The notes under the pieces are model-generated. The model made no database searches. It saw only the letters and a list, made by a program, of their open reading frames with translations, and was not told the DNA's origin. From Microbacterium limosum (lineage in GTDB: Bacteria; Actinomycetota; Actinomycetes; Actinomycetales; Microbacteriaceae): DNA of 64,000 nt. Positions 11,349-64,000 of the stretch are shown piece by piece (positions within the stretch are counted from its first letter, which is position 1; the number at the start of each line of letters is the position of its first letter). The position numbers and the translations under genes are program-made. The stretch spans positions 2,666,001 through 2,730,000 of the forward strand of contig NZ_CP137080.1 of assembly GCF_036324365.1 (NCBI RefSeq), in the 5' to 3' direction.

Positions 11349-11422
11349 GGGGATGTAGTTCAATGGCAGAACTTCAGCTTCCCAAGCTGATAGCGCGGGT
11401 TCGATTCCCGTCATCCCCTCCA
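11349..11422 (+). tRNA. glyV: tRNA-Gly (CCC)
   Basis: A 74-nt cloverleaf: acceptor GGGGATG pairs with CATCCCC, the anticodon stem TCAGC/GCTGA encloses the loop TTCCCAA with anticodon CCC, and the T arm GCGGGTTCGATTCCCGT is canonical. The discriminator is T and CCA is encoded (11420-11422). The gene stands alone between dcd and the ribokinase gene. The gene symbol is provisional. Confidence 0.95.
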
Positions 11423-45950: not shown

Positions 45951-46006
45951 GGAGTGGTCGTTCCGGTTCTACAGGTCCGCGCCGTGAACGGTGAGGCCGG
46001 CCGACG

Positions 46007-46378
46007 TCACTGGACGATGGCAAGACCTGTGGCCTGTTCGGCCTCGGAGATCCCGCCCGCGTCCTGCACGTCGAGTCCCGCATCCTCCATCGCGGCGACC
46101 GCCTGCGCGGATCGGTTGCCGGTCTGGCAGTAGACGACGTACTCGTCGTCGGGGTCGAGCTCCGCGATGGCCGCGTCGAACTGCGGGGATTGAAAATCGA
46201 TGTTGATGGCGCCGTCAAGATGCCCGCCGGCGTACTCCGCGGGTGTGCGCACATCGACGACGACCGTGTCGTCGCCGATGACTATGGAGCCAGGCGCCGT
46301 GGCGGCGCAGCCGCTCATCACGACGGAGAGAGCGAGGGCCGCGCCGAGCGCGACGGCTCGCAGGCTACGCCGCGGCAT
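46007..46378 (-). CDS. Rhodanese-domain lipoprotein
   Basis: A 123-residue exported sulfurtransferase-like protein: lipobox VMSGC near residue 25, then a single rhodanese domain with VVDVRTPAEYAGGHLDGAINID and the active-site loop YCQTGNRSAQA (catalytic Cys). Domain length is standard. It is divergent from the DUF4395 gene and shares a perfect palindromic operator with it. A role in persulfide/sulfane sulfur handling at the cell surface is inferred. Upstream in-frame Mets at 46435 and 46477 look non-coding. Confidence 0.87.
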   Translation of the reverse strand: MPRRSLRAVALGAALALSVVMSGCAATAPGSIVIGDDTVVVDVRTPAEYAGGHLDGAINIDFQSPQFDAAIAELDPDDEYVVYCQTGNRSAQAVAAMEDAGLDVQDAGGISEAEQATGLAIVQ

Positions 46379-46526
46379 AAGGGTGACCCCCGCACCGCTG
46401 GTCAGCCGGAACTCCGTAGAGCGCCTCTTCCACATGCTGACCGCACCCTTCCCACGTTGCTTTGCCGCACTGCCCACACGTCATACGAGCACACATCTCC
46501 TGCGCCTTTCGTCGGGATCGGATTCA

Positions 46527-46558
46527 ATCCGAGTATACCCCCCTGGGTATACTCGGAT
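46527..46558. promoter_or_regulatory. CstR/CsoR-like palindromic operator overlapping two divergent promoters
   Basis: ATCCGAGTATACCC (46527-46540) and its exact complement (46545-46558) flank a 4-bp spacer CCCT. The core ATACCC...GGGTAT is the CsoR/CstR-type operator pattern. TATACT occurs on both strands: 46548-46553 on plus, 7 nt before the DUF4395 ATG, and 46532-46537 on minus for the rhodanese gene. Known CstR regulators sense persulfides and govern rhodanese genes. No regulator gene is in the window. Confidence 0.78.
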
Positions 46559-46560
46559 CT

Positions 46561-47127
46561 ATGCACTCATCTCGCTCGAGGAAGGAACCGCCTGTCGTCG
46601 GTCAGTGGGTCGCGGGGCTCGATGTCCCGGTCGTGAACGAACGCGCGGTGCGGGCGTCGGCGGGGATTCTGTTCCTGGGTGGGTTCTCGGCGTGGCTGTG
46701 GAGCGTGAGCACGGGGGATCTGCAGCCGATGCGGATCTTCGGAATGGCGTTCGCCATCGAGATGATGCTGCGGCTGTTCGTCGGAACGGCCTTCACGCCG
46801 ACACTCGTCCTGGGTACGTTGATCACGCGCCCGCAGCGCCCGGAGTGGGTGGAGTCGCGATCGAAGCTCCTCGCCTGGCGCCTGGGTTTCGGGATGTCCC
46901 TAGCGGGATGCTTCAGTCTGGGGTGGCTGGGCTTGCCGGCGATCATTGCTCAGGTGATCTGTGGGATGTGCCTCCTACTGCTGTACCTGGAGGCGGTCTT
47001 CGGGATCTGTGTGGGATGCGTCCTCGGGCAGCGCTTCGCACGTCGCAAGCCGCAGCTGTGCGCGGGGGACACCTGCACCTACACGCCCCCGGCGAAGGGT
47101 GAGCAGCATTCGATCCTCCGTGACTGA
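46561..47127 (+). CDS. DUF4395 membrane protein
   Basis: A 188-residue integral membrane protein with four hydrophobic segments. The family's conserved FGICVGC (CxxC) lies in the last helix, and the C terminus has further cysteines in QLCAGDTCTY. DUF4395 proteins often occur beside rhodaneses, thioredoxins and CsoR-like regulators, so a sulfur or redox function is likely. The ATG is 7 nt after TATACT and directly abuts the operator, giving a leaderless message. Confidence 0.87.
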   Translation: MHSSRSRKEPPVVGQWVAGLDVPVVNERAVRASAGILFLGGFSAWLWSVSTGDLQPMRIFGMAFAIEMMLRLFVGTAFTPTLVLGTLITRPQRPEWVESRSKLLAWRLGFGMSLAGCFSLGWLGLPAIIAQVICGMCLLLLYLEAVFGICVGCVLGQRFARRKPQLCAGDTCTYTPPAKGEQHSILRD

Positions 47128-47448
47128 GCCCGGGTCGCGACGGCTGGGCAACGGTATCCCGAAGCTCAGCTGGGTGGGGCCGGGTTGGCGGCCGCACCAT
47201 CCGGATGCCGGCGGCCACCACCAGAAGCCCGAAGGCTCCGCCGCACTTGTGCGGGGCGGATTGCGTCGAGCGCGCGGAGCCGATTGTGGGCACCGCCCGG
47301 AAGTGGATCGGCGGATCCGCTTGCGTGCGTCGCGCGTAGGAGGGAGCTTCTTGGGCACCTGGCTCGATGGAAGCCGCACGCGCTTGAGATCGATGCGGCG
47401 GCGGGCGAAGGGTCTATATACTGCTTTATATAAACCGGAGGAGGAGTC
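47128..47448. other. 321-bp intergenic stretch with no recognised gene
   Basis: I see no gene with recognisable homology here on either strand; all open frames are Arg/Pro/Ser-rich shadow-like translations. The last 35 bp hold the VapBC promoter and a GGAGGAGG ribosome site. Confidence 0.5.
47415..47432. promoter_or_regulatory. Candidate VapB operator/promoter
   Basis: Two TATATA boxes (47415-47420 and 47427-47432) flank CTGCTT in an otherwise GC-rich stretch, 17 bp before the vapB ATG. The layout suits an autoregulated toxin-antitoxin promoter with a symmetric operator. GGAGGAGG (47437-47444) is an unusually strong ribosome site for the antitoxin. Confidence 0.5.
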
Positions 47449-47670
47449 ATGACCGTCACGTCAATCGACATCGACCCGAACGAGCTGCGCCAAGCGAAGG
47501 AGCTCGCGGGCACGACCTCCAATCGCGAAACGGTGGATCTCGCCCTGCGCACTCTCATCGCCGTCCGTCGCCAGCCGGCAGCCGTCGAGCGGATCATCGC
47601 CCGTACGTTCGAGCCCGACCAGATCGACGCGCCGACGATCCCGCCGGCGACGGCGATTGCCGGCCAGTGA
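47449..47670 (+). CDS. vapB: VapB-type antitoxin
   Basis: A 73-residue antitoxin of the DUF2191/RHH-type VapB group (TVTSIDIDPNELRQAKELAG then SNRETVDLALRTLIAVRRQ). The N-terminal part is the DNA-binding ribbon-helix-helix; the Pro/Ile-rich tail would wrap the toxin. The gene overlaps vapC by 4 bp (GTGA), as usual for type II pairs. Confidence 0.88.
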   Translation: MTVTSIDIDPNELRQAKELAGTTSNRETVDLALRTLIAVRRQPAAVERIIARTFEPDQIDAPTIPPATAIAGQ

Positions 47671-48071
47671 CGACCTACCTCGTCGACAACAGCATCTGGC
47701 AGAAGGCCTCGACGAGCGAAGCGATTGCGACAAGGCTTCGGGAACTCTCGCCCACTCACCTGATCATCACCTGCCCGCCGCAAGTCCTCGAGTACTGCCA
47801 TTCGGCTCGGAGCCCGCAGGAGTACCAAGAACTCCGCGCGGACATGGAGCAGCTACTGTCGGCATGGGAACACCCCCACGAGCAGCAAGCCTTGGACGTT
47901 CAGCAGGCGCTGTGGGACACCGGGCTCATGCGAGCGGCAGCGGCGTTCGATTGCCTGATTGCGGCGTACGCGGTCGCCAACGACGCTGTCATCCTGAACT
48001 CCGACCACGACTTTGGGTTCATCGAGATCGCCACGCGGGGCGCGGTCCGGCAGGAGTACGTGGCGCCCTAG
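47667..48071 (+). CDS. vapC: VapC-type PIN-domain toxin
   Basis: A 134-residue PIN ribonuclease. The acidic residues are in place: Asp7 (YLVDNSIW), Glu42 (QVLEYC), Asp95 (FDCLIAAYA) and Asp113/Asp115 (NSDHDF). It is likely active and held by the overlapping VapB. It would cut tRNA or rRNA, but the target is unknown. It converges on a serine recombinase fragment, with a 4-bp overlap at the ends. Confidence 0.9.
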   Translation: MTTYLVDNSIWQKASTSEAIATRLRELSPTHLIITCPPQVLEYCHSARSPQEYQELRADMEQLLSAWEHPHEQQALDVQQALWDTGLMRAAAAFDCLIAAYAVANDAVILNSDHDFGFIEIATRGAVRQEYVAP

Positions 48072-48391
48072 GGGACTTCCGACCTGGTCAGTAGCACTGT
48101 GACGGATCGGACCGGGCCGCGGCCTCGGGCCGCCAGCTTGGGCTGCTTGCCCTTCAGATGACCCTTCGCCCGCGCCACCGCCATCCCTTCCTTCGTGCGC
48201 ATGCCGATCAGCTCGCGTTCGAACTCGGCGACCATGGCGAGCACGTCGAAAAGCAGCCTCCCCGCCGGGTCTGTGGGGTCATGCCTGCTCCCGCCGAGAC
48301 TGAGCGCGACGCCTTTCGCAGTCAGCTCGTCGGCGATGTCCCGTGCGTCCCTCACCGATCGGGCGAGCCGCCAATCAGTATTCCGTTTCAT
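48068..48391 (-). pseudogene. Serine recombinase (Pin/Hin-type) fragment
   Basis: About 80 residues match the second half of the resolvase/invertase catalytic domain: RLARSVRDARDIADEL, TAKGVALSLGGS, FDVLAMVAEFERELIGMRT and KEGMAVARAKGHLKGKQPKL. The N-terminal active-site Ser and Arg segment is lost, and the C-terminal DNA-binding helix-turn-helix is replaced by unrelated sequence. The fragment is non-functional. Its lost upstream side lies toward the IS21 insertion. Confidence 0.8.
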
Positions 48392-48563
48392 GCCGCCGAC
48401 GGTGCCACCGTCAGCGCAGAGGCGCACCCAAGTTAATCGACTTGCGGGCACCGCGCGCCTGGGGTGTGTGGCGAGCCGGGAGTTCCGCCTCGCAGGCGTG
48501 ACCGATCCTGACCGTGCGCGATCAATTCTGCATTGCCCGCTGCCACGGGCTCTGACGCTTGAG

Positions 48564-48611
48564 TGAGTATTTGCGCTTCTGAGGGCCACTGATATTGGGG
48601 TTCAGGGCCAC
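48564..48611. repeat. Left terminal inverted repeat of the IS21 element
   Basis: TGAGTATTTG, then GCCACTGATATTGGGGTTCAG, matches the reverse complement of the right end, with differences at only a few positions. A second, diverged copy of the motif lies at 48640-48670 (ACCGAATATTGGGGTTCGGGG). Confidence 0.9.
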
Positions 48612-48724
48612 TCGCTGATCGACGCGATGGCGTCGTTGAGCGCCACCGAATATTGGGGTTCGGGGCCATCTTCCTAGGCTCCTTCTGCCGCGTGGCCTAT
48701 CACGCGGCAGAAGGAGTGATTCGG

Positions 48725-50284
48725 ATGGTACGCAAGATCAAGGTGAAGCTCGTGCTTCGGTTGCGCGCGGAGGGGCTCACGGGTCGGCAGATCGCCGCGC
48801 AGGGCATGTCCCGCACCAGTGTGGCCCTGGTGCTCGACGCCGCCGACCGGGAGGGCATCGGCTGGGACGACATCGCCGAGCTCGACGAAGCGGACGTGTA
48901 TGCGCGGCTGTTCCCCGGGCGTGGTGAGCACGAGAGTGTTCACGCGCAGCCGGACTGGGACAAGGTGCATCGGGAACTCGCGAGGGTCGGGGTGACGTTG
49001 AAGCTGCTGCATGGCGAGTACGTCGATGCCTGCCGTGCCAAGGGCGAGACGGCGATGGGCTACGACCGGTTCTGCAAGACCTACCAGCGTCACGTGCTGG
49101 TGATCGGGGCGGCGTCGCGGGTCGGTCACAAGGCCGGGCAGACGGTCGAGGTCGACTGGTCGGGCAAGACGATGCAGCTGGTCGATCCGGTCACCGGCAC
49201 CACGACGAGGGTCTACCTGTTCGTCGCGAGCCTGCCGTTCTCCCGCTACTCGTTCGTCGAGCCGACGCTGGATATGAAGCAGGACACCTGGTTGCGCGCG
49301 AACACGGCGATGTTCGACTGGTTCGGCGGGTCCGTCCCGCGGATCGTTCCGGACAACCTGAAGGCGGGTGTGATCAAGCACCCTGCCGAGGGCGAGGTGG
49401 TGCTGAACGACGCGTATCGGGAGCTCGCGGCGCACTATTCGGCGGCGGTGCTGCCGGGACGGGTGAAGAAGCCGAAGGACAAGCCGAGTGTCGAGGGCAC
49501 GGTCGGGAACGTTGCGACGGTGGTGATCGCGGCTCTGCGCAACCAGCGGTTCGCGACGCTGCCGGAGTTGCGGGCCGCGGTCTACGAACGCGTCGCCGCT
49601 TACAACGCGAAGCCGTTCCAGAAGCGCGCCGGCTCCCGGCTGAGCGTGTTCGAGGGTGAGGAGAAGCCGCTGCTGCGGCCGCTGCCGCAGGTTCCGTTCG
49701 AGATCTCGCAGTGGCTCTACGGCCGCAAGGTTCAGAAGAACGGGCATGTGGTGTTCGAGCGGAACTTCTACTCCGTCCCTTACGAGAACATCGGTCGGTC
49801 TGTCGACCTGCGCATCACCGACACCATGTTGGAGGTGTTCGCCGGGGATCAGCGGCTCACCAGTCATCTGCTCGCCCCGGCCGGGGTGGTCAACGAGTAC
49901 CGGACGCATGACAGCGATCTGCCCGATGGGCCCCGCTACCAGCAGATGGACCCGCAACGGGCGCGGGAGTGGGCCGCTCGGGTCGGGGAGCACACCACGA
50001 CGATCGTGAACCGGATCTTCGAGTCCGTCCCGGTCGATGAGCAGGGGCTCGGGGCTGCGCTGGCAGTGCTGCGGATGACCCGACGCTACTCCGCCGCCCG
50101 TGTCGAAGCCGCCGCTGGCATCGCGCTCGAGTCCCGCGTCCGATCACCCAGGTATGCGCACCTGCGGCCGATCCTCGACTCGAATCAGGACCAACGCGGC
50201 AGAGGCCCATGGTTCGAACCCGCCGACGAGGAACCCGTCGGCTACGTCCGCGGCGCCGACTACTACGCAGGAGGCACCCGATGA
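48725..50284 (+). CDS. istA: IS21 transposase IstA
   Basis: A 519-residue DDE transposase: an N-terminal helix-turn-helix (LTGRQIAAQGMSRTSVALVLDAA), then the catalytic core with Asp near 144 (VEVDWSGKT), Asp near 209 (IVPDNLKAGV) and Glu near 257 (KPSVEGTVG). The C-terminal part (FERNFYSVPYENIGR) is also typical. All catalytic residues are present. The ATG at 48725 follows the left repeats; istB begins 4 bp before its stop. Confidence 0.94.
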   Translation: MVRKIKVKLVLRLRAEGLTGRQIAAQGMSRTSVALVLDAADREGIGWDDIAELDEADVYARLFPGRGEHESVHAQPDWDKVHRELARVGVTLKLLHGEYVDACRAKGETAMGYDRFCKTYQRHVLVIGAASRVGHKAGQTVEVDWSGKTMQLVDPVTGTTTRVYLFVASLPFSRYSFVEPTLDMKQDTWLRANTAMFDWFGGSVPRIVPDNLKAGVIKHPAEGEVVLNDAYRELAAHYSAAVLPGRVKKPKDKPSVEGTVGNVATVVIAALRNQRFATLPELRAAVYERVAAYNAKPFQKRAGSRLSVFEGEEKPLLRPLPQVPFEISQWLYGRKVQKNGHVVFERNFYSVPYENIGRSVDLRITDTMLEVFAGDQRLTSHLLAPAGVVNEYRTHDSDLPDGPRYQQMDPQRAREWAARVGEHTTTIVNRIFESVPVDEQGLGAALAVLRMTRRYSAARVEAAAGIALESRVRSPRYAHLRPILDSNQDQRGRGPWFEPADEEPVGYVRGADYYAGGTR

Positions 50285-51032
50285 GCCGGCTCGACTCCGA
50301 GACGAAGCGGAAGCTGCGGGAGATGGGCGTCCCCGCCCTCGTCGACGCGCGCTCGACATCCAGGACGAGGGCCTCACGATGGGGCTGGTGTTCGAGGAGA
50401 GGATCAAGCTCGCCGTCGACGACGCCCACGCCGCGTTCACCCACTCCAAAGTCGAAGGCCTCATCCGACGAGCGGGCCTGCGCTACCCGAACGCGGACCT
50501 CCGCCGCGTCGACATGCTCGAACAACGCGGCCTGGACCGGGGTGTGATCGCGCAGCTCGGGACCTGCCAGTTCATCACAAGGCACATGAACGTCGTGTTC
50601 CAAGGCTTCACCGGCTCCGGGAAGAGCTATCTCGGCTCGGCGTTGGCGAAGCAGGCGTGTCAGCACCGCTACCGGGCGCACTACATCCGCATGCCCGACC
50701 TCGAAGAGACCTGGGCCGCCGCGAAAGACAAGCCAGCGGGTCGGGAGAAGTGGTTGCGGAAGTACTCCACGTTCACCCTCCTCGTGATCGACGAATGGCT
50801 GCTCGATCCACCCACCGACGACGTCCGGTCCATGCTGCTCGAGCTCCTCGAACGCCGTTACGACGCGACCTCGACGGTGTTCTGCACCCAGTACGCGAAG
50901 AAGGACTGGCACCAGCGCCTCGGCGGAGGGGTCCACGCCGACGCGATCATGGACCGCATCGTCCACAACGCCCTCTGGATCGAGACCGGCGACGTCAACA
51001 TGCGCGAGCACACCGCCGCCGCGGCCAACTGA
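50281..51032 (+). pseudogene. istB: IS21 ATPase IstB, frameshifted near its start
   Basis: The ATG at 50281 begins MSRLDSETKRKLREMGVPAL, but the reading frame changes at about 50346-50352: the normal continuation ALDIQDEGLTMGLVFEERIK is in another frame. GACGCGCGCTC looks like GACGCGCTC with an extra CG, so a 2-bp insertion explains it. The rest is intact: Walker A GFTGSGKSYL and Walker B LVIDEWLLDPP. An internal ATG at 50380 could restart translation without the first 33 residues. Confidence 0.85.
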
Positions 51033-51156: not shown

Positions 51157-51193
51157 GCTTGAGTGTGATCATGCGCGGCACGGCGACCCGGAA

Positions 51194-51424
51194 TGTCCAC
51201 ATGGACATCGCATGACATTTCATCTGCGAAATGGACAACTTCAAAAAACCTACAACTGGTGTAGGAACCGCTCAGAAATGTCCATGTCGGAGGCGGAATC
51301 GTGCGACCCTCCGGAGCGATATGTCCACGTCGCGTCGTCGGCTACATCCAGCAACTTGTCCATCCGGATGGCTGAGACTGAGCGGCTACACGCACATTCC
51401 TACGTCTGGTGACCAGCATGGACA
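51194..51424. repeat. Cluster of seven TGTCCA/TGGACA half-sites
   Basis: TGTCCA occurs at 51194, 51279, 51322 and 51357; TGGACA at 51202, 51232 and 51419. Aligned copies give a consensus near ATGTCCAYGTCGG. The first two form a dyad, and CATTTC/GAAATG at 51216-51233 forms another. About 0.1 such hexamer would be expected by chance in this length. It may be a recombination, partition or regulator-binding site. No gene is recognised between the IS end and 51433. Confidence 0.6.
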
Positions 51425-53666: not shown

Positions 53667-55511
53667 TCAGCTCTCGTCATCCATGCGATCAACGTCATCA
53701 GTCGATTCTGCTCGAACGGCGTGATAGTAGGGCGTGAACGCGAGCAAGAACGCCATCCACCACGCGTACAGTGCCGCATCACCGCCCGACTCAGCCTCAT
53801 CCAGGAGACCGTGCGCAACGCGGTTGCGCAGGTTCGGGCCGGTCGGCCCGCAGAAGAGGGCTCGAATGTTCCACGCGAGGTCCTCACCGAGAACCTCATT
53901 CGCTTCCGGAAGCTCCATGAGCGCGCTCAGCCCTGGCTCCATCTCCGTGTCATTGGTTTTCAGGTTGCGCGTCTCAACTCCGCTCGCCTGCAGTGCGCCC
54001 CGCACGCAGGCTTCGATCGTGGGAGCAAGTATGAACAGTGACTCGGTCACCCGCCCGTAGTAGCCGTGATGGAGCCCGCGGGCATAAAGGCTCTTGCGGT
54101 CCGCCGGCACGAACCCTGAGGCGGAGACGATCACCTCGAAGTCCCGGATGTCGAGTCGGTAGTTCGTCGAGAATTGCATCACCGCTGGCCGGATGTGCGC
54201 GGTCGCGATCGCAGCAACGTGCAGTGAGTGGTTCTTCACCATCTGCGCCCATCGACTCGGATCGACGCCGGAGCGAAGCCTGTCTTCGTCTGTGCTGTGG
54301 ACTTTCCGCGCATCGTCCGTAATTGTCGAGCTCGGCACGATGTTCAAGAGCCCCGTCTGATTGGAGGACTGGAGCGCGTCTTCGAAGGTCTGGAGCGGGG
54401 CCGCCGAAAACCACCTAGCGAGACCTCGAATGAGGTCGGTGTCGTTCGCGATTGCTTCCGCCTGCTCGACGATCGGAGACAGGTCGATCGGACCGCTGCG
54501 GACCTTCTGCATCTCGCCAAGCGCGCGCTCGCCAGCCACCCGAATCAACCTCGGGAGCTTCCTGACACGCTTTCGTGTGCGCTCACTTCGGAGGTGCCGC
54601 GGAACCTCACGGTAGGAGCTGTAGGCATTGCCTAGGAAGTTTCGCGCGACGAGACTCGAGTCTCTCCGTCGCTTTGCTTCTTGCCACCACGTATCGCCGA
54701 TCGCCTCTCGACTCGGTGCCGCTAACGCGTCGGCGTCATTGCCCCGTCGCCACCGGATCGACTCTTCGAGGAGCTGAACCTTCGCATGGGCAGTGAGCTC
54801 GGCGCTCGCCAGCGCGTCGAGCCTGTCGGCGATCTCTGCGGAGTGGCCGTTGAAGTAGCGGGCGCGTCGCATCGCCTGCGCGACGTGCCACGCGGCGATG
54901 GGCTTGCCGCCTCGAAAGGCTTCGAGCGCCCGGGCTGTAAGTGCCTGAACGCCGTCATTGAGGCGGTAGCGACCCGCTATCTCAGCGGCGCGGATCCACA
55001 TCTGCATCAATTGGTCGTCGGGGTCGGGTAGCAGTGAAAGTGCCGCAACAATCTCGGCGTGCTGCTTGGCGAGTGAGAATCGCCGACCCCGATCGCTCTC
55101 TCGAACTAACAAGATGTCGCACATGCGCGCCGCGAGCACGGATGGAGGAACCTCTTCAAGAAGTAGGCCAAAGAACTCGAGCGCTTCATTGTCCAGGTCG
55201 TCGGGCAACGCCGTGCGCTTGCCTCCGAGTGACATCAGCGGCGTATACGGGCTATCCCAGTCAGACCCGTCGAGCATCATCCCGGCAATTGCCGAGAGGC
55301 TCCGATACGCGTGCGCCCCTGCGGACTCGCTGTCGAGGTCATCCGCGAGCGCCTGGAAGCGACTGTGCGCGTCGATTAGCGTGTCGTCGCCGACGATTGC
55401 ATCCACATCGATCGCAGCGAACATCTCTCGTGCCGTCTTCGTCACCGGCCGAGCGTATCGAGTCTGGCCGACTGCCGGCGACACGCCCGAGCAGCCGGTC
55501 ACGGCCGTCAT
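53667..55511 (-). CDS. Large DUF4209 family protein
   Basis: A 614-residue soluble, largely helical protein. The C terminus carries the DUF4209 signature: GPNLRNRVAHGLLDEAE holds the RNxxxHG motif and FILAPTIEACVRGALQASG precedes it. RN-x3-H resembles the catalytic motif of HEPN ribonucleases, which suggests, but does not show, RNase activity. The start is ATG 55511 (GGAG at -14) or GTG 55445. It sits alone between the TIGR04255 operon and the Tn7-like core, so it is probably transposon cargo. Confidence 0.75.
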   Translation of the reverse strand: MTAVTGCSGVSPAVGQTRYARPVTKTAREMFAAIDVDAIVGDDTLIDAHSRFQALADDLDSESAGAHAYRSLSAIAGMMLDGSDWDSPYTPLMSLGGKRTALPDDLDNEALEFFGLLLEEVPPSVLAARMCDILLVRESDRGRRFSLAKQHAEIVAALSLLPDPDDQLMQMWIRAAEIAGRYRLNDGVQALTARALEAFRGGKPIAAWHVAQAMRRARYFNGHSAEIADRLDALASAELTAHAKVQLLEESIRWRRGNDADALAAPSREAIGDTWWQEAKRRRDSSLVARNFLGNAYSSYREVPRHLRSERTRKRVRKLPRLIRVAGERALGEMQKVRSGPIDLSPIVEQAEAIANDTDLIRGLARWFSAAPLQTFEDALQSSNQTGLLNIVPSSTITDDARKVHSTDEDRLRSGVDPSRWAQMVKNHSLHVAAIATAHIRPAVMQFSTNYRLDIRDFEVIVSASGFVPADRKSLYARGLHHGYYGRVTESLFILAPTIEACVRGALQASGVETRNLKTNDTEMEPGLSALMELPEANEVLGEDLAWNIRALFCGPTGPNLRNRVAHGLLDEAESGGDAALYAWWMAFLLAFTPYYHAVRAESTDDVDRMDDES

Positions 55512-55589: not shown

Positions 55590-55874
55590 GTGTCGAAGCG
55601 AACCAGACCCGAGGATGCGGCCTGGAGCGACTACGCGGGCAAGCTCGCCACGAACCTTCAACGGCTCCGCCACGAGCGCGGGCTCAGCCAGGAGGACGTC
55701 GCATACCGGTCCGGCCTGACGCGCTACACGTACCAGAAGTACGAGAAGGGCGAGTCGAAGCCGGGAACGCCGGCGAATCCGACGATCCGCACGCTGCTCG
55801 CGATGTCGCAGGCGCTGGACGTCGATCTCACTGAGATTCTTCCGCCCGACGCGCCCGACCTTCGGCTTCGCTGA
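55590..55874 (+). CDS. Small XRE-family regulator
   Basis: A 94-residue protein with one Cro/C1-type helix-turn-helix (NLQRLRHERGLSQEDVAYRSGLTRYTYQKYEKGESK). It starts at a GTG and converges on tniQ, overlapping its 3' end by 47 bp. The position beside the transposition core suggests it regulates transposon or cargo genes. The ribosome site is weak. Confidence 0.8.
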   Translation: MSKRTRPEDAAWSDYAGKLATNLQRLRHERGLSQEDVAYRSGLTRYTYQKYEKGESKPGTPANPTIRTLLAMSQALDVDLTEILPPDAPDLRLR

Positions 55875-58221
55875 ACTCGAAGGCGCGCGACAACTCACGG
55901 TGCACGTCGGCGCCGAGCGCGGTGAGGGCGAGTGGCTGACCTCGGAACGCACGGTGGATCAGCGGGCCACCGGCATCCACCCCGATCCGTCTCATCTGGT
56001 TCGCGAGGATGCTCAGCGTCACTCCGAGCTCGGTCGCGGCGGCCGTCATCGTGCCGTGGCGGGCGACGACGAGGAATCGATCGGCGCGCTGTGTGGCGTC
56101 CTGTCCGACGAGGATCCGGCGCAGTAGCGGCGAGTCGCCGGCGCGTGGGTCAACCCGGATCGCGGTCGCTCGGCTCGCGCTGCCGCGGACTCGGCGCGGG
56201 ATCCCAGCGGCCTCGAGGTGGCGGTTGATCGTGGTCATCGTCACGCCCACCTCCGCGGCTATCTCAGGGATGGTGCGGCGCTCGTCGATGTAGCGGCGCC
56301 GCAGCCACTCCACATCGATGTCAGCCCTCCGTCGACCGATGCGAATCTCGACGCCGACCTCCTCGAGCACGCGGCTGACGGTCTGACGGGCGACCCCGTG
56401 TTCGAAGGCGATCTCTCTCACCGACTGCCCCGCGGAGTACGCCGCGACCGCGCGGGTCGGCTTCACTGCGGCCCGGGCGGGGCGAGCTTCCGGCCATTCG
56501 CCCCCGCCCGATGCGGCGACATCTACAATCACGCCGGCGAGGTCGAGGTCCGGCATCCATTCCACGGGCTCATCGATGTGCCGCGCCTTCAGGAATGCAG
56601 TCGCCGAGTCGTTGAGCTCACGGGAAACGACTTCCGGCAATCCGTCGCGAAACGAGCGAACTTCGGCGAACGAGGGGAAGCCGGCCTCTTGAGCGAAGGG
56701 CGCCCGCGCCACGCGATTGCCGCTCAGTAGGGCGTAGAGGTGCGCGCGGGCCGTCTGCCACCGCCGATCCCCACCGGGCAGGACGTTCGCCATCCGGCAG
56801 ATCTCGCGCCACTCGTCGCGGGGCAGGATGCCGGAGTAATCGATGACCCGCCGGCGTGCGAAGTCGATCGGCGTCGAGGTCTCATCGAGGAACGCGACAA
56901 GCCGAGCGATCGCGCGGATAGTGTCGGCCTCGGGTGCGTTGCGGCCGAGAGACCGCATGACGTGGCTGACCTGGCGTCCCTGTGCTGCGGGATCGAGGAG
57001 CTTGATGGCCGAGCCGTGAGTGAGGCGGGTGCCCACGAAGACCACGGCTGCCGCCAGCGCACCGCCGGCGATCTCCGCATCCAGGCGCCGTGGTGCGAGG
57101 CGTGAGGTCCATTCGGGCCACAGGACGGCGGGAAGCTTTGCGGCTCTCGCGGCCGGATCCACCACCGACATCGTCACCGCCTGAAGGGTCGCAGTAGGAC
57201 GCCTCATTCGACCGAGCGCACGGCTTACGTGGTCGCGCAGTGGCGGGGAGTAGTGGTCGAGCGCGGTGTGGACGCTGACGCGTCCGCGCAGCAGGTCAGT
57301 GACCCGGTCGCCCGACTGCAGCGCAACGAAGGCGATCGTGTTGCCGAGAGCAACTTCTCGGGCAGTGCTTGGCCGCAGATCCACCTTGCCGGTGCGCTTG
57401 TGAGACGCGATCGGTCTCACGTCAACCTGGCCCGCAGGCATCCACTCGAAATGCTCTCCGTCGACGAGCGCTTGTCGTGCCGCGCGTGACAGCAGCAGCA
57501 TGTCGGACAGCACCTGGACGGTGCTCGGTCGACCGCCGGCGTAGATGCCGAACTCGCCGACGCCGGTAGCGATGACCCTCAAGATCGCACGTTGCGCTTC
57601 GCGAGTCTCGGAGTCCGCCGCCACGAACTCCTCGCTCGAAGTGAGATCGACTCCGCAGCGCGCGCCTAACATCGGCGGCTCGGTCGGCGGTCTGTTGTGA
57701 CAGTGCCCGGGTTCCGGAACGATCGTGAGGGGATGGGCGAGGAGCCGGGGCGGTTGGCCGCAACCCGGGCACCGGTCGACGAGTAGACGCTTGTGGCGTT
57801 GGCAGGCGAAGCCGAACGGGAACTGCCAGGACAGGCGCCAGCGGCCTCCCGAGTCGGCGAGACACTCGGGGCAGTAGCGGGCGGCTACTCCCGTGGCCGG
57901 GCAGGACGCGCTGATGCGTCCCTGAGGCGTGAGGCGGATGGCGTTCGCGGCGAACGTGGTGCGGGTCATCGCGCGGAACTCGTCGCCCGACCGGCCGGTC
58001 GCCAGCTCGAGGTTGCTGAGCTGCTGAGGTTCGAGCGCAGTGGACCAGGCCCGTGAAGATTGGGATCCAGCGGCGGGAACCTCGTCGCTCCCGATCAGTC
58101 CGAGCGCTCGAGCCATCTCGCCGACAGTCGCCCCATAACTGTGGGCCATGAACTCGACCCAGGAATCGAAAGGTTCATCCGGGAGCGGCATCGCGACGTG
58201 GAGCAGGCGCCGGAGGCTCAT
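55828..58221 (-). CDS. tniQ: TniQ/TnsD-like target selector with three C-terminal HTH modules
   Basis: A 797-residue protein. The N terminus is TniQ-like: PLPDEPFDSWVEFMA at the start, then a zinc finger region YCPEC (about 116-120) and CQRHKRLLVDRCPGCG (about 141-157). A long middle region is unassigned. The C terminus has two HTH-like repeats (AGQSVREIAFEHGVARQTVS and RTIPEIAAEVGVTMTTINRH) and a LysR-like HTH (VARHGTMTAAATELGVTLS). Such an array suggests recognition of a specific DNA target. Confidence 0.85.
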   Translation of the reverse strand: MSLRRLLHVAMPLPDEPFDSWVEFMAHSYGATVGEMARALGLIGSDEVPAAGSQSSRAWSTALEPQQLSNLELATGRSGDEFRAMTRTTFAANAIRLTPQGRISASCPATGVAARYCPECLADSGGRWRLSWQFPFGFACQRHKRLLVDRCPGCGQPPRLLAHPLTIVPEPGHCHNRPPTEPPMLGARCGVDLTSSEEFVAADSETREAQRAILRVIATGVGEFGIYAGGRPSTVQVLSDMLLLSRAARQALVDGEHFEWMPAGQVDVRPIASHKRTGKVDLRPSTAREVALGNTIAFVALQSGDRVTDLLRGRVSVHTALDHYSPPLRDHVSRALGRMRRPTATLQAVTMSVVDPAARAAKLPAVLWPEWTSRLAPRRLDAEIAGGALAAAVVFVGTRLTHGSAIKLLDPAAQGRQVSHVMRSLGRNAPEADTIRAIARLVAFLDETSTPIDFARRRVIDYSGILPRDEWREICRMANVLPGGDRRWQTARAHLYALLSGNRVARAPFAQEAGFPSFAEVRSFRDGLPEVVSRELNDSATAFLKARHIDEPVEWMPDLDLAGVIVDVAASGGGEWPEARPARAAVKPTRAVAAYSAGQSVREIAFEHGVARQTVSRVLEEVGVEIRIGRRRADIDVEWLRRRYIDERRTIPEIAAEVGVTMTTINRHLEAAGIPRRVRGSASRATAIRVDPRAGDSPLLRRILVGQDATQRADRFLVVARHGTMTAAATELGVTLSILANQMRRIGVDAGGPLIHRAFRGQPLALTALGADVHRELSRAFEFSEAEGRARRAEESQ

Positions 58222-59336
58222 GCGACGGACCGAGGCTTGCTCCGCTTGGCCGCGAGCTTCTTCTCCTCGAGCTCCATTGCAACGACCTCCCGCGCATCCT
58301 CGGCTGCCACGTCGATGTCGATCTCGTCCAGCACCGCACGGGTCAGTTCCTCAGTGCCGTCACGCATGGCGTGCACAGCACCGAGGGTGATCAGCTTAAA
58401 GAGCGAGCCGATCATTCCGGTTGAGCGTTCGTAGAGGTAGTCCGCTTGCTCACGGAGCATGTGCGGTCGCGCGTTGGCCAGCACAAGGCGCGCGTCGATC
58501 GCGCCCAGCAAGGTCATCCAGGTCTTTCGGTGCTCACCGACCGGGTGCGCGAATGGCGGGAGGGTCAGGCGTGTCCAACGCCGCGCGATCTGCGACATCG
58601 CGAGCTTCTTGTCGGTCTTGCTTTCACTGAGCAGCCCTGTGCTGCTCATGTTGACGCCTGTGAAGAGGAAGGTCGCCGGGTACTCGTTGGCGAGCCACTT
58701 CAGCTCGTTGGCCAGCGCGACTCCCTCGTCGGTGTGGATCTTCAGGAAGTGCACGTCGTCGACGATGATCAACCGCGTGCCGTGACGGCGAACCGACTCG
58801 GCTGCCAGCGCAGCCAGGTTTCGGTTGCGCAGGTATCGGCTCCTCGAGGCGTCGGCGGAAGGATGGTTGTAGAAGTTCAGGATGGACTCGTTCAACGCAC
58901 GCGTCGTCGTGTTCCCGGAAAACGCCACCCTGCAGACGGGGATGTGGAGCGTCTGCCCGTCGTCGAAGTCACGTCCGTGCCGCAGGATCTGCCGTTGGTG
59001 AAACGCCCGCCCGAACGCGTCGACGGCGGTGGTCTTGCCGAGCCCGGGCGGCGAGTCGATGACCGCGGCGCCCTTCACCCGAGACGGGCCCTGTTGGTTC
59101 GCATCGAGCAGGTCCCAGAGGCGTCCGTTCAGCCTCACGACCTGCGGAGTCTTCACCAGGAAGTTCGCGTGATATCGCTCGCGGTGGTAGTCGTAGGCGA
59201 CACGCTCGTCCTCGCTGAGCTCCTCGATCTGTCTCGCCGACAGCCGCTCGGGCTGCTCAAGGGCTGGCGCTTCGGCGAAGTCCCGCCACCCCTCCCAGCG
59301 AGAGAGGAGTTCGTCGCGCTCGAGCGGAAGGATCAC
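58218..59336 (-). CDS. tnsC: TnsC/TniB-like AAA+ ATPase
   Basis: A 372-residue AAA+ regulator that links target selection to the transposase. Walker A SPPGLGKTTAV (about 96-106) and Walker B LIIVDDVHFLK (about 187-197) are intact, with sensor-type FLFTGVNMSS and an RRWTRLTLPPF arginine region. It overlaps tnsB and tniQ by 4 bp each. Confidence 0.92.
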   Translation of the reverse strand: MILPLERDELLSRWEGWRDFAEAPALEQPERLSARQIEELSEDERVAYDYHRERYHANFLVKTPQVVRLNGRLWDLLDANQQGPSRVKGAAVIDSPPGLGKTTAVDAFGRAFHQRQILRHGRDFDDGQTLHIPVCRVAFSGNTTTRALNESILNFYNHPSADASRSRYLRNRNLAALAAESVRRHGTRLIIVDDVHFLKIHTDEGVALANELKWLANEYPATFLFTGVNMSSTGLLSESKTDKKLAMSQIARRWTRLTLPPFAHPVGEHRKTWMTLLGAIDARLVLANARPHMLREQADYLYERSTGMIGSLFKLITLGAVHAMRDGTEELTRAVLDEIDIDVAAEDAREVVAMELEEKKLAAKRSKPRSVA

Positions 59337-61450
59337 AGGTCCTCCAGGAGGTCGATGTCGTCGAGGTCCTCTTCGATGAGCTCGTCGGCGGTGAGCGCGA
59401 GCGGATCGTCGTTTTCGCTCGCCTGTGCTGGTGAGAACGAGACCATGCCCAGCTCCTCGCTCAGATCCGGTCCAGCCGTCTGCTGCGCGATCTGCTTGGC
59501 GATGTGCGGGAAGAACGGGCTGTCTGGGCCGTCCGCGGTCTCGGCGAGCTGGGCAGCCAGTCGCGCGCTAATGCGCTTCTCGGCAGGCGTGCTCGCACGG
59601 CCGGCACCCCACCGTTCGAGGAGTTCACCGAGCACTTCGGACACATTCACACCGTTGCGACGGTCGAGAGCGATGCCCTTGGCGTACTCGAGGGCGTCGA
59701 AGCTGAACGGCACCGGGACCTTCGGCGCGTGCTCCCAGCGCAGCACGTGCCAGGAGTTGTCGTCGGGGTCGTTGAAGTAGATCTGCGAGAAGTCGTCGGG
59801 GTTCACCGAGAACTGCCACTTCCGCTTGCTCTTTGCCATCGCCCGTGATCGGTCGTAGTACTTCCCGACGATGTCGCCGTTGTAGCGGAGAGTGCCGACC
59901 TCGACGCCGTAGTGGTTGAACTTGCGCTTCACGACGGGGAGCATCTCGAGCAGCAGGTTCGGGTTCGATGGGACACGGATGCGGCCGGCCACCGCGATCC
60001 CCTGCTCGAACTTCTGAGCGGGGCTCATCTTGGCCGCCGGCAGCTGCGAGTCGACAAGTCCGTCGTGCGGGCGAACGTGGTAGATCGTCGCGATCCACTC
60101 CCGCAGGATCTGCTCCAGCTGCGGGATCGTGTAGACGGCTTCCACCTCGGGCGCCTCACCCCGCGAGGCGATGTCTGAGCCCTTGTAGCCGGGTAGCTCT
60201 TGCAGCACCTCGTTGATGGTGCGGAACCACCGTTCCACCCACGCCTTGTCGGTGCCGGTATAGACGTGCGCGGGCTGGATGGAGATCCCGAGTCGCTGGC
60301 ACACGCTCGCCACGTGGATCGACATGAATGGCTTACCGTGATCGATGATGATCGTGTCGGGAAGGATGCCGGGTCGGCGGAACCGCAGCGCCTTGAGGTT
60401 CTCGACGTCGATAACGATGTTCTCGGGTACGCCGTGGAACGGCCAGGTCGCTCGGTCGCCCCACTCCGCCGGCATCTCGCGCGGCATGAGCGCTTCCATC
60501 AGCACTCCCGCGACATCCACCGCCTTGGTCGAGACGGGCGCAAGGCGAAGCCCGAGGATCGACCGGTCGTAGAGGTCGAGGGCAACGGTCAGCTCGGCGC
60601 GTATCCACTTGCCGGTGACCGGCGCGACGCCGAAGACGTTGAGGGGTGTGGTGTCGAGGACGACGTACTCACCGGGTCTTGTCGCGACCAACCGTCCGTA
60701 CGGCACGGGCGGCCGTGTGTCGATGGATCGTTGCGCGCGCATGCTCGCGCCGAACGTCCCCTTGCCACGGGTGAGTTCGGCGACCGCGTCGCGAGCGGTC
60801 GAATCGGAGGGGATCCGCACATCGGCATCCGGGTATTCCCGGTTGACCCTTGCCAGCACGATCGCGAGCGTGGTCGTGACGCTGCGCTTGGCGCCGCGCA
60901 CGTTCTCCTCAACGACGCGCCGGCACATGTCAACCCAGCGCGGATCGAGGCCGGAGAGCGCCGGCGTCCACGATGTCTTCCGGAAGTCGAGCAGCGCGAG
61001 ATCTTCGCCCTCGTCGAACCGATCGTCCCAGCGCTTCAACGTCTTCGGACTGACTCCGAGCTCTGCAGCCTTGGTACGACGACGCTGGTGAATGGTTGTG
61101 AGCTTCGGGTTGTACTCCGGTCGAGGCTCGTGCGGCTGAGCGAGCGTCGGCAGCCCCGACGCAAAGCCCGTGCGCATCTCGCGGATGTGCGCGGCCTTTG
61201 TTCGCGCCTCATCGCGTTGCGCTTCCGTCGCGTCCGCCCAGATCAGCGCGAGCGGTGTGAGTGCGACCTCCTCCGACGGCAGTCCGAATGCGTCCATCGC
61301 GTCGCGAAGGAGCTCGACGAGTCGAACCCGTCGGGTTCTCTTGGCGCCGTCGACGAGGACGACGGCATCGCCGGCGATCTCGATGACGGTGCAGAGACAG
61401 CCGTCGTACGAGACGGTGCTGCCGACCCGGATTTCAAAGTTGTGGCTCAT
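59333..61450 (-). CDS. tnsB: TnsB/TniA-like DDE transposase
   Basis: A 705-residue rve-fold transposase of the Mu/Tn7 type. An N-terminal HTH (KAAELGVSPKTLKRWDDRF) is followed by the catalytic triad: Asp near 265 (YVVLDTTPLNV), Asp near 370 (IIIDHGKPF) and Glu near 404 (DKAWVERWFRTINE). The last two are about 34 residues apart, as in DDE(35)E enzymes. The C-terminal acidic tail (EEDLDDIDLLEDL) may bind TnsC. All key residues are present. Confidence 0.94.
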   Translation of the reverse strand: MSHNFEIRVGSTVSYDGCLCTVIEIAGDAVVLVDGAKRTRRVRLVELLRDAMDAFGLPSEEVALTPLALIWADATEAQRDEARTKAAHIREMRTGFASGLPTLAQPHEPRPEYNPKLTTIHQRRRTKAAELGVSPKTLKRWDDRFDEGEDLALLDFRKTSWTPALSGLDPRWVDMCRRVVEENVRGAKRSVTTTLAIVLARVNREYPDADVRIPSDSTARDAVAELTRGKGTFGASMRAQRSIDTRPPVPYGRLVATRPGEYVVLDTTPLNVFGVAPVTGKWIRAELTVALDLYDRSILGLRLAPVSTKAVDVAGVLMEALMPREMPAEWGDRATWPFHGVPENIVIDVENLKALRFRRPGILPDTIIIDHGKPFMSIHVASVCQRLGISIQPAHVYTGTDKAWVERWFRTINEVLQELPGYKGSDIASRGEAPEVEAVYTIPQLEQILREWIATIYHVRPHDGLVDSQLPAAKMSPAQKFEQGIAVAGRIRVPSNPNLLLEMLPVVKRKFNHYGVEVGTLRYNGDIVGKYYDRSRAMAKSKRKWQFSVNPDDFSQIYFNDPDDNSWHVLRWEHAPKVPVPFSFDALEYAKGIALDRRNGVNVSEVLGELLERWGAGRASTPAEKRISARLAAQLAETADGPDSPFFPHIAKQIAQQTAGPDLSEELGMVSFSPAQASENDDPLALTADELIEEDLDDIDLLEDL

Positions 61451-62169
61451 GGCATCTCCAATTGGGTGTGGTTGGCAAGGGCGGAGGTGAGGTCGCAGAG
61501 AATCAAGCGGCGCCAGAGCAGGTGCAGCACGACCGCTCGCGCATAGGGAGCGTCACTCAAGGCGGCGCCAGCACTCCGCAGACCCGCGCCGAGTGTGGGT
61601 GCCTCGCGAGTGGCTTCCTCGACCAGATCGACGTCTCGCTGAGGGAACTGCCAGCGACGCCTGTAGCCCGCGAGGAACCGGATGTTGGAGAGCAGTGCAG
61701 GGGCGGGTTCTGTGACGATCCGGTATGCCCACCCGCGCGACTGGATGATGTCGCCCGCCCACCGGAGAGCACCCGCGATGTCAGGATCCTCGAGCCGGCG
61801 CTTGGGCTTGACTTCGATGACCGTGAATCGGTGGTCGTCGTGCTCAATCAGGTAGTCGGGCACGTAGCTTCGCTCGACACCGTCGCGGTCGGCGATCAGC
61901 TCGAACGGCTGCGAGGCGATGCGAACGGCCCGGTGGTCGAAGTCCTCCAGGAGTAGCGCCGCGAGTTCGAGGCGGCTCTCGTACCCGACGAAGCCCTCCG
62001 TCGTTGCCGACCAGTAGCGCCCCGGGTAGTGGCGCTGTCCGCGATGCCAGCGGAACGTCCGCCGAGGCTCGGCCTCGAAGACATGGGGGGCGTCCAGGTC
62101 CGATAGCTCGCCCCGTTCGAGGTCATCCCGATCGAATCTCAGCGTGTAACCCGGCAATGACGTCGTCAT
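61447..62169 (-). CDS. tnsA: TnsA-like endonuclease
   Basis: A 240-residue restriction-fold nuclease. The active-site pattern Glu64 (VGYESRLE), Asp105 (YVPDYLIE) and Glu119-x-Lys121 (VIEVKPKR) matches TnsA E63/D114/K132. The N-terminal domain is catalytic, while the C-terminal part (WQFPQRDVDLVEEAT) is short. It would cut the 5' transposon ends so that movement is cut-and-paste. GGAGGT directly precedes the ATG at 62169; it overlaps tnsB by 4 bp. Confidence 0.9.
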   Translation of the reverse strand: MTTSLPGYTLRFDRDDLERGELSDLDAPHVFEAEPRRTFRWHRGQRHYPGRYWSATTEGFVGYESRLELAALLLEDFDHRAVRIASQPFELIADRDGVERSYVPDYLIEHDDHRFTVIEVKPKRRLEDPDIAGALRWAGDIIQSRGWAYRIVTEPAPALLSNIRFLAGYRRRWQFPQRDVDLVEEATREAPTLGAGLRSAGAALSDAPYARAVVLHLLWRRLILCDLTSALANHTQLEMP

Positions 62170-62234: not shown

Positions 62235-62428
62235 TACGTTCCGCAGCTTCGACACGCGGTCCGAGTCCTTCGTGTTTGAGGCTTCTCGCACGCCGAAGGA
62301 TGCGGGTAGTGAATGTGACATTTACGCTGGGGGCGTCAGCTACACAACACGCGCCACGCCGTTGGATTTCGCCCTGCGATGCTCCTCCTGCGCTGAGCGC
62401 CTCATGCGAAAATGAGGCGGTGGAGACC

Positions 62429-62773
62429 ATGCCGAGCGAACAGAGCGAGGAGCTCTCGAAGCTTGCCTTCGGCAGCAACCACATGCTCGCGCTCATGGCC
62501 GAGATCGCGCGTTCTCCCGACGGGAAGTTCTCCACGCCGTCCGTGGCAGATGCCACGGGGCTGTCGACCAGTACGATCCACGCCTTGCTGAAGCGCCTCA
62601 AGCAGCTGGGACTTGTCCGGCGGACCGACGAGGTCACTCCTGAGCGGATCAGGATCTACCAGCGTGCGGTGCACCCGACATGGGACTACGCACTGCGACT
62701 CGAGGCCGAGGCTGACGCGCGCGCGGCCGGAACCTTCACGATCCAGTGGGAGCCAACGACGGCGGGGCGGTAG
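62429..62773 (+). CDS. Winged-helix transcriptional regulator
   Basis: A 114-residue protein with a MarR/IclR-like winged helix: helix 2 and 3 in FSTPSVADATGLSTSTIHALLKRLKQLGLV and a wing RRTDEVTPERIRIYQ. A GTG at 62420 would add three residues. It is divergent from tnsA and upstream of the DISARM-like genes on the plus strand, so it may control either. The C-terminal helix (DYALRLEAEADARAAG) is typical of dimerising regulators. Confidence 0.8.
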   Translation: MPSEQSEELSKLAFGSNHMLALMAEIARSPDGKFSTPSVADATGLSTSTIHALLKRLKQLGLVRRTDEVTPERIRIYQRAVHPTWDYALRLEAEADARAAGTFTIQWEPTTAGR

Positions 62774-63178: not shown

Positions 63179-64000
63179 TGGAAACGCCGCGAGGTCGTCC
63201 CGACGATCCTCGAACCGCGCTTGCTCAACGTCGTCCGTCTGCACCTGGGGCCGCAGGTCGACGCGCTGCGGCCGTTCCCGTGGCAGCCCAAGAAGGGCGC
63301 GATGTCGACCGAGGGCTCGGACCTCGGCCTTCCCGCGCGGGTGTTCCCACAGTGGTTCCGATGCACTGGCTGCGACTACCTCGGCCCACTCACGCGATTC
63401 ACTTACACGAACACCCATCCGTTCCGGCCCGACCTCGCCCAGTTCACTCACAAGCCCTGCCCTGGTCGCGGCGGTCGAGGACGCCGCGAGGGAAGCCCCG
63501 CCGTCCCTGCACAGCACCTGCTGACCTGCACCAACGGACATCTCGACGAGTTCCCCTACACGCTCTGGGTTCACCGGGGCCAGAGGTGCCCGAACGCTGA
63601 GAATCCCGACCTGAAGATGCGTGACGCCAACGTCGGCAAGAGCGTCGGCTCCACGATCATCTGCCAGTCGTGCAGCGCCACACGCGGCATGGCCGAGGCC
63701 CAAGGAGCGAAGGGGCGGCTCAAGCTGCCCCAGACGTGCCGGGGACGCCACCCTCACCTCGGCGCATTCTTCCCCGGCTGCAAGGCGCGGCCCGCGCTCA
63801 TCATGATGGGAGCCTCGAACCTGTGGTTCCCCTCGACGCAGAGCATCATCGTCATGCCGCGCTCCGACGCCGAACAGAAGGAAGCACTCGCCGACCACCT
63901 TCGTGTCGAACTCGGCATCGACCAAATTCGGCAGTTCGCCGACCAGATCCCGGTCATCCGCGCACTGGCGGGCGCGCGCAACATCGACGTCACCGGACTC
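63173..64000 (+). CDS. drmB: DISARM DrmB-like (DUF1998-type) protein, partial at window end
   Basis: An open frame of 276 codons runs off the window. It reads WKRREVVPTILEPRLLNVV, then FPQWFRCTGCDYLGPL, LTCTNGHLDEFPYTLWVHRG, STIICQSCSATRGMAEAQ, and FFPGCKARPALIMMGASNLW. The zinc CxxC pairs and the CTNGHLDEFPY segment are those of DrmB (DUF1998). There is no start in this frame near the usual N terminus, and coding potential continues upstream in another frame, so the gene is probably 5'-truncated or frameshifted. Other DISARM genes would lie to the right. Confidence 0.75.

Follow-up and report, generated by a model that had tools for sequence, protein, structure and literature searches.

Tn7 carries dense repeats at its right end and spaced repeats at its left end, and inserts with the right end toward its target gene. 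Long TnsD-like proteins with several C-terminal helix-turn-helix (HTH) domains are described in the main text of PMC10293859 as a known protein-guided kind, and Benler et al. 2021 (PMC8649781) say of their actinobacterial Tn7-like clade that no member has been characterised. Here we analysed a 64,000-nucleotide stretch of the Microbacterium limosum chromosome (NZ_CP137080.1, positions 2,666,001 to 2,730,000; "the window"), which contains a Tn7-like element. The element is very probably a cut-and-paste transposon in which a TnsD-type TniQ guides insertion behind the 3′-end of dnaB, which encodes the replication helicase. Coordinates follow the numbering of the window and values above 64,000 come from adjoining stretches of the chromosome. 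The genome is a single contig of 2.79 Mb, and the records of its close relatives are mostly titled Microbacterium.

Core genes and the TniQ protein

The core genes lie on the minus strand in the order tnsA (61447..62169), tnsB (59333..61450), tnsC (58218..59336) and tniQ (55828..58221), with neighbouring frames sharing a few bases. TnsA, the putative endonuclease, matched Tn7_TnsA-like_N (4e-09) and has E-D-ExK residues at about positions 64-119, a combination that predicts cut-and-paste transposition. The DDE transposase TnsB matched rve at 5.4e-05, which is under the curated cut-off of that family, and has acidic residues D266, D370 and E406, the last two separated by 35 residues. The AAA+ regulator TnsC matched AAA_22 (7.8e-11) and TniB (3.5e-09), with a Walker A motif near residue 96 and a Walker B motif near 190. 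We take these motifs of TnsA, TnsB and TnsC to have their usual catalytic roles. Together with the TniQ core (TniQ, 1.5e-17), the predicted TnsB transposase and TnsC ATPase place the element among the Tn7-like transposons. The original prediction, that tnsA, tnsB and tnsC are intact, was therefore borne out by domains and motifs. It had equated the element with 55828-62169, which proved to be the core only; the element spans 51260-89009 and passes the right edge of the window by about 25 kb.

TniQ is 797 amino acids long, as predicted, and consists of the TniQ core, two putative zinc clusters, a middle helical region and three C-terminal HTH units. The eight ligands (C117/C120/C140/H143 and C151/C154/C174/C189), which probably form the two clusters, were invariant across 48 homologues. 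The first HTH unit (residues 590-620) had a Pfam match over the cut-off, the Pfam matches of the second (646-671) were all under it, and the third (716-770) matched HTH_1/LysR at 1.9e-07. The AlphaFold2 model predicted all three units to be helical, with block-mean predicted local distance difference test (pLDDT) values of 70-91, so the HTH regions stood up to structural prediction. The mean pLDDT of the whole model was 85.5 and its predicted template modelling score 0.51, so the domains are better placed internally than relative to each other. A core followed by a zinc cluster and a long C-terminal HTH region would make this protein, judged by its architecture, a TnsD-type selector.

Insertion behind dnaB and stacking of elements

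The ends were first located by comparing a close relative (L008) with the extended window chromosome, which revealed a repeat-bearing end directly after dnaB. The left end of the main element (51260..51369, plus strand) has the terminus TGTAGGAACCGCTCAGA, present in nine of ten close genomes including that of the window, and carries GAAATGTCCA-type repeats at three spaced positions, +16, +59 and +94. Right ends consist of TGTAGG, a run of T and densely packed GAAATGTCCA-type repeats. Ends of the form TGT...ACA that bear arrays of repeats resembling transposase sites are those of a Tn7-like element. The right end of the main element itself is broken by the gene of an insertion sequence, which encodes an integrase core. 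Two patterns for the right end were discarded: the first was badly specified and matched none of nine genomes, and an exact one, too strict for the variable T-run, matched one of 398 family genomes (the window's own) in a draw with just eight other genomes of the genus, and was not used as evidence.

Of 398 family genomes, ten matched TnsB at 1e-50, and TniQ searches at 1e-10 gave nine in the same genomes and 33 among 366 genomes of the genus, the window genome being counted each time. In 40 genomes this TniQ family was present and dnaB data were available (site gene: DnaB_C, 1.2e-103); TniQ was on the dnaB contig in 32 of them, and in all 32 it lay downstream of dnaB on the same strand. These comprised 25 of the tabulated set of 33, in which the nearest copy was 3.4 to 61 kb away, and a further seven compared by hand (six from two other genera, and G611), which all agreed at about 6 to 68 kb. 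The motif TGTAGG or TGAAGG began 21-26 bases past the conserved Asp-Met codons of dnaB in 29 of the 31 readable carrier tails (those of G642 and G639 were unread and are outside the 31), at +21 in six genomes, +22 in 16, +23 in two, +25 in three and +26 in two. For G489 the offset is that of the real end at +21, a match at +10 being due to chance; in G677 and G676 the motif at +22 was followed by a repeat-bearing right end at +32 and +28, respectively. By chance the motif occurred in 1.0% of 11,386 windows of 26 bases. The ends of relatives thus cluster past dnaB instead of being inserted at random. A near-fixed distance and a single orientation beside a conserved site are the behaviour of a TnsD-type selector. 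The glmS homing of Tn7 proper was not found here, as the site is dnaB.

The motif stood at +15 to +30 in four of 32 comparison genomes without this TniQ (27 from the genus and five TnsB carriers). This set leaves out G280 and G182, TnsB carriers without a TniQ match whose end-like sequences past dnaB (TGTAGATTCC at +20 and TGTTGGAGGG at +17, respectively) differ from the motif; within the set, four loci (L187, L189, L195 and L198) show sequence near dnaB that resembles an end but was missed by the motif. Other or decayed elements therefore use the dnaB site in genomes without this TniQ. Six outgroup genomes had TGT-like candidate ends at about +15 to +18.

TniQ would, most likely, bind dnaB where its conserved coding sequence ends, at the ...GHFSRFTDM codons, and load TnsC on the downstream side. 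Insertion by TnsA and TnsB would follow about 22 bases beyond, with the right end of the element toward dnaB and a 5-base duplication, and repeated use of the site would stack elements in arrays. Such stacking was seen in the window genome, where the right end of a neighbouring, older element (51190..51254, minus strand) is 5 bases from the main left end. The interval from the main element to dnaB (101394-102764) contains four copies of an element of 3087-3091 bases that lacks tns genes, each bordered by CCGGG, which differ pairwise by no mismatches and one to five gap positions; their right ends have GAAATGTCCA-type repeats at +16, +36 and +47 plus inverted copies. These four tandem elements (89016-101386; genome 2755016-2767386, L003/L004) carry ArsR, P-type ATPase and signal peptidase II-like genes and suggest that a metal-resistance unit was recently amplified, or else that the assembly produced the repeats. 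The 5-base target duplication was clean in these four copies (G000, the window genome), in G503 and in G558, which has a complete element of 16,545 bases. In the single-contig genome G503, a stretch of about 183 kb downstream of dnaB (G503:C1:299952-483007) held five right-end and four left-end matches and is read as stacked elements.

The ten close genomes gave 31 right-end matches, 30 of them listed as loci and none of them the interrupted right end of the main element. By manual reading, nine were beside dnaB or its fragment, 13 were stacked on another end, six were elsewhere (L161, L164, L165, L169, L176 and L182) and three were unplaced (L181, L184 and one without a locus).

Several observations weigh against homing to dnaB as the whole account. 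TniQ was on other contigs only in eight of the 40 genomes (G676, G489, G615, G674, G679, G684, G586 and G642). Of the two exceptions among the 31 tails, G615 has an intact dnaB with no adjoining end, and in G674 the contig stops 23 bases past the Asp-Met codons. G674 also has a second site (L161, L134), at the 3′-end of a lyase gene of the aspartase/fumarase type, where GATAT stands at the right end on one contig and at the left end on another. Three genomes (G489, G615 and G679) share a further site beyond a class II aldolase-like gene, with at least two different right-end sequences, and this is a possible second homing site. Flanks were unmatched in the main element of G000 (CGGGT/CCAGT) and in array members of G494 (GATGT/GTAGG), G676 C157 (GTAGG/TTTGG) and G489 C26 (ACAAT/GACAA), for which recombination within arrays is our proposed explanation. 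Finally, many of the genomes are related, so the insertions are not all independent.

At the aldolase-like gene, the ends of four loci (L164, L165, L169 and L149) fell at the same base in the three genomes, with CGGGG flanks. A contig of G615 (C136, L175) bears a 73-amino-acid open reading frame with the 3′ part of dnaB alone and a right end 23 bases past the Asp-Met codons; this is a detached attachment site. The dnaB matches were split in two in G586, G642, G739, G639, G409 and G296, with both parts inside a single long open frame in all but one of the six, which suggests an intein in DnaB. Two other candidates were set aside: a tRNA-Gly at 11349 as attachment site, being distant from the element ends, and a close relative on plasmids, as all 153 records from a tblastn search with TnsB were below 60% identity.

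At offsets of 22 (the commonest) or 25, which account for 19 of the 27 TGTAGG junctions, the end reads xTG TAG in frame, and in the two TGAAGG cases (G440 and G504, offset 21) TGA is in frame. The transposon end supplies the dnaB stop codon in G684, G692 and G739, and in G504 dnaB stops at the TGA of the element end. Spacing and terminal sequence may be matched so that insertion at the stop codon of an essential gene stays harmless, an idea we put forward tentatively and regard as somewhat doubtful. If true, the extreme 3′-end of an essential gene would serve as homing site, protected by the stop codon that the terminal repeat brings along, and would be a hotspot where whole arrays collect.

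The part of TniQ that sets the site

The original prediction pointed to three C-terminal HTH units, one of them LysR-like, and to a possible new mode of targeting. The units are present, the last one LysR-like, but it is very unlikely that they, the LysR-like one in particular, define a new mode or set the site. TniQs of ten genomes (G499, G591, G739, G390, G553, G588, G408, G729, G440 and G504) align with the window TniQ no further than residue 704; the distinct proteins among them had no match to the LysR-like part, HTH_1 was absent from the three scanned with Pfam, and yet past dnaB each of these genomes shows the end motif at +21 to +26. The LysR-like unit is therefore, as far as these alignments go, dispensable for the dnaB site. 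It occurs in 16 of the 31 distinct TniQs of a tree on which the label needs three changes, several long branches leaving parts of that tree unsure. One of the 15 lacking it, G454, has an unusual 917-amino-acid frame with the LysR-like part in a separate frame and is not counted as a true lack.

An alignment of six outgroup TniQs encoded downstream of dnaB (A2) aligned with residues 5 to 628 of the window TniQ at 100% probability, stopping at the first HTH, and none of the five scanned had a Pfam HTH match at 0.01. The TniQ of G302 (539 amino acids) was alignable over residues 6-227 alone. Comparison of the two suggests that residues of about 230-628 may be the dnaB reader, G302 being the one control sequence. 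The site goes with the type of TniQ rather than with the relatedness of TnsB (identity to the window TnsB: 43% in G302 and 30% in G087). In G302 and G049 related TnsA/TnsB elements (L065, L066), that of G302 with a different TniQ, stand beside a clpB-like gene, with tnsA starting about 0.2 kb from its 5′-end; their ends are undelimited and they are perhaps another site-specific family.

Alternatively, TniQ might only bridge, as with TnsF in Tn6022, while dnaB is picked by one of two further proteins whose genes are kept beside the core in most close loci. An XRE-type HTH gene (55590..55874, plus strand) overlaps the 3′-end of tniQ in antisense and was present in eight of ten close loci, the contigs of the other two (L011 and L015) ending before its place; a divergent winged-HTH gene (62420..62773, plus strand) was present in nine of the ten. 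At 1e-3, however, the complete G558 element has no match to the winged-HTH gene and the G390 stretch none to the XRE gene, and both have ends at +22, which makes this account very unlikely. That a single ancient insertion behind dnaB, inherited vertically and remodelled, mimics homing is scarcely credible: most carriers are of one genus and some ends and TniQs are near-identical, but 333 of the 366 genus genomes have no TniQ match at 1e-10, cargo differs between elements, each stacked element has ends of its own, with 5-base flanks that differ, and a detached dnaB fragment is used too.

Cargo and comparison with known systems

Next to the core, the element encodes a PDC-S39 candidate defence protein (DUF7380/DUF4209, 1.6e-125; 53667..55511, minus strand) and a DrmB-like gene (2.3e-11; 63221..64000, plus strand, continuing past the window). 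Further cargo comprises P-type ATPases, CopC, CopD and cytochrome-assembly proteins, and that of relatives HmaA, HmaB, DrmD and type I methyltransferase-like proteins. As predicted, no CRISPR effector was seen: no Cas or TnsE family matched in the 25 Pfam-scanned genes of the 26 predicted between 63221 and 88959 (all but 79841-80860), and no CRISPR repeat or other RNA family reached Rfam cut-offs, nor was there an array-like repeat. Among those genes and repeats, then, there was neither Cas effector nor array to indicate a CRISPR-associated transposon (CAST). To the left, within 46000-51032, an IS21-like gene pair recognised by eye (48653-51032) marks the left edge of the array, and a VapBC-like pair (47449-48071) is in a stretch of lower GC content.

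The claim of a new site-specific targeting mode holds for site specificity without CRISPR; the mode itself is not new, since TnsD-like proteins with several HTH domains are already known. The word dnaB does not occur in the main text of PMC10293859, PMC8649781 or PMC11406308, and literature searches joining dnaB with Tn7-like terms did not find the site, although subscription journals and supplements were largely uncovered and an earlier report may exist. This is an ordinary kind of TnsD-guided Tn7-like element, whose dnaB target was not found in print in the literature searched. With dnaB, an essential replication gene joins the attachment sites that the examined Tn7 papers name, and in Microbacterium defence and metal-resistance cargo gathers there. 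TniQs with varying numbers of HTH units at the same site, and a related TnsB with another TniQ beside a clpB-like gene, form a natural series that makes directly testable which part of TnsD reads DNA, and insertion tools could be made from TniQ/TnsD pairs of high-GC actinobacteria whose site is defined.

Tn6022 (TniQ and TnsF, comM) is likewise a protein-guided Tn7-like element; here no TnsF-like partner was noticed, with no profile search made for TnsF, and the target gene stays whole. CASTs with TnsD homing (types I-B and I-D) share a TnsD-like protein with several C-terminal HTH domains but differ in their CRISPR-Cas genes and array, which were not found among the genes and repeats scanned in the dnaB element. 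The clade of Benler et al. is alike in its Tn7-like core with defence cargo. Unlike Tn7 (TnsABCD, glmS), the element targets dnaB, inserts at the stop codon or no more than a few bases from it, has no TnsE match in its scanned proteins and differs in its C-terminal modules. It resembles Tn7 in TnsA, TnsB, TnsC and a TniQ-core selector with a long C-terminus, in insertion downstream of the 3′ coding end of a conserved gene, as given in the main text of PMC11406308, and in the layout of its end repeats with the right end toward the gene.
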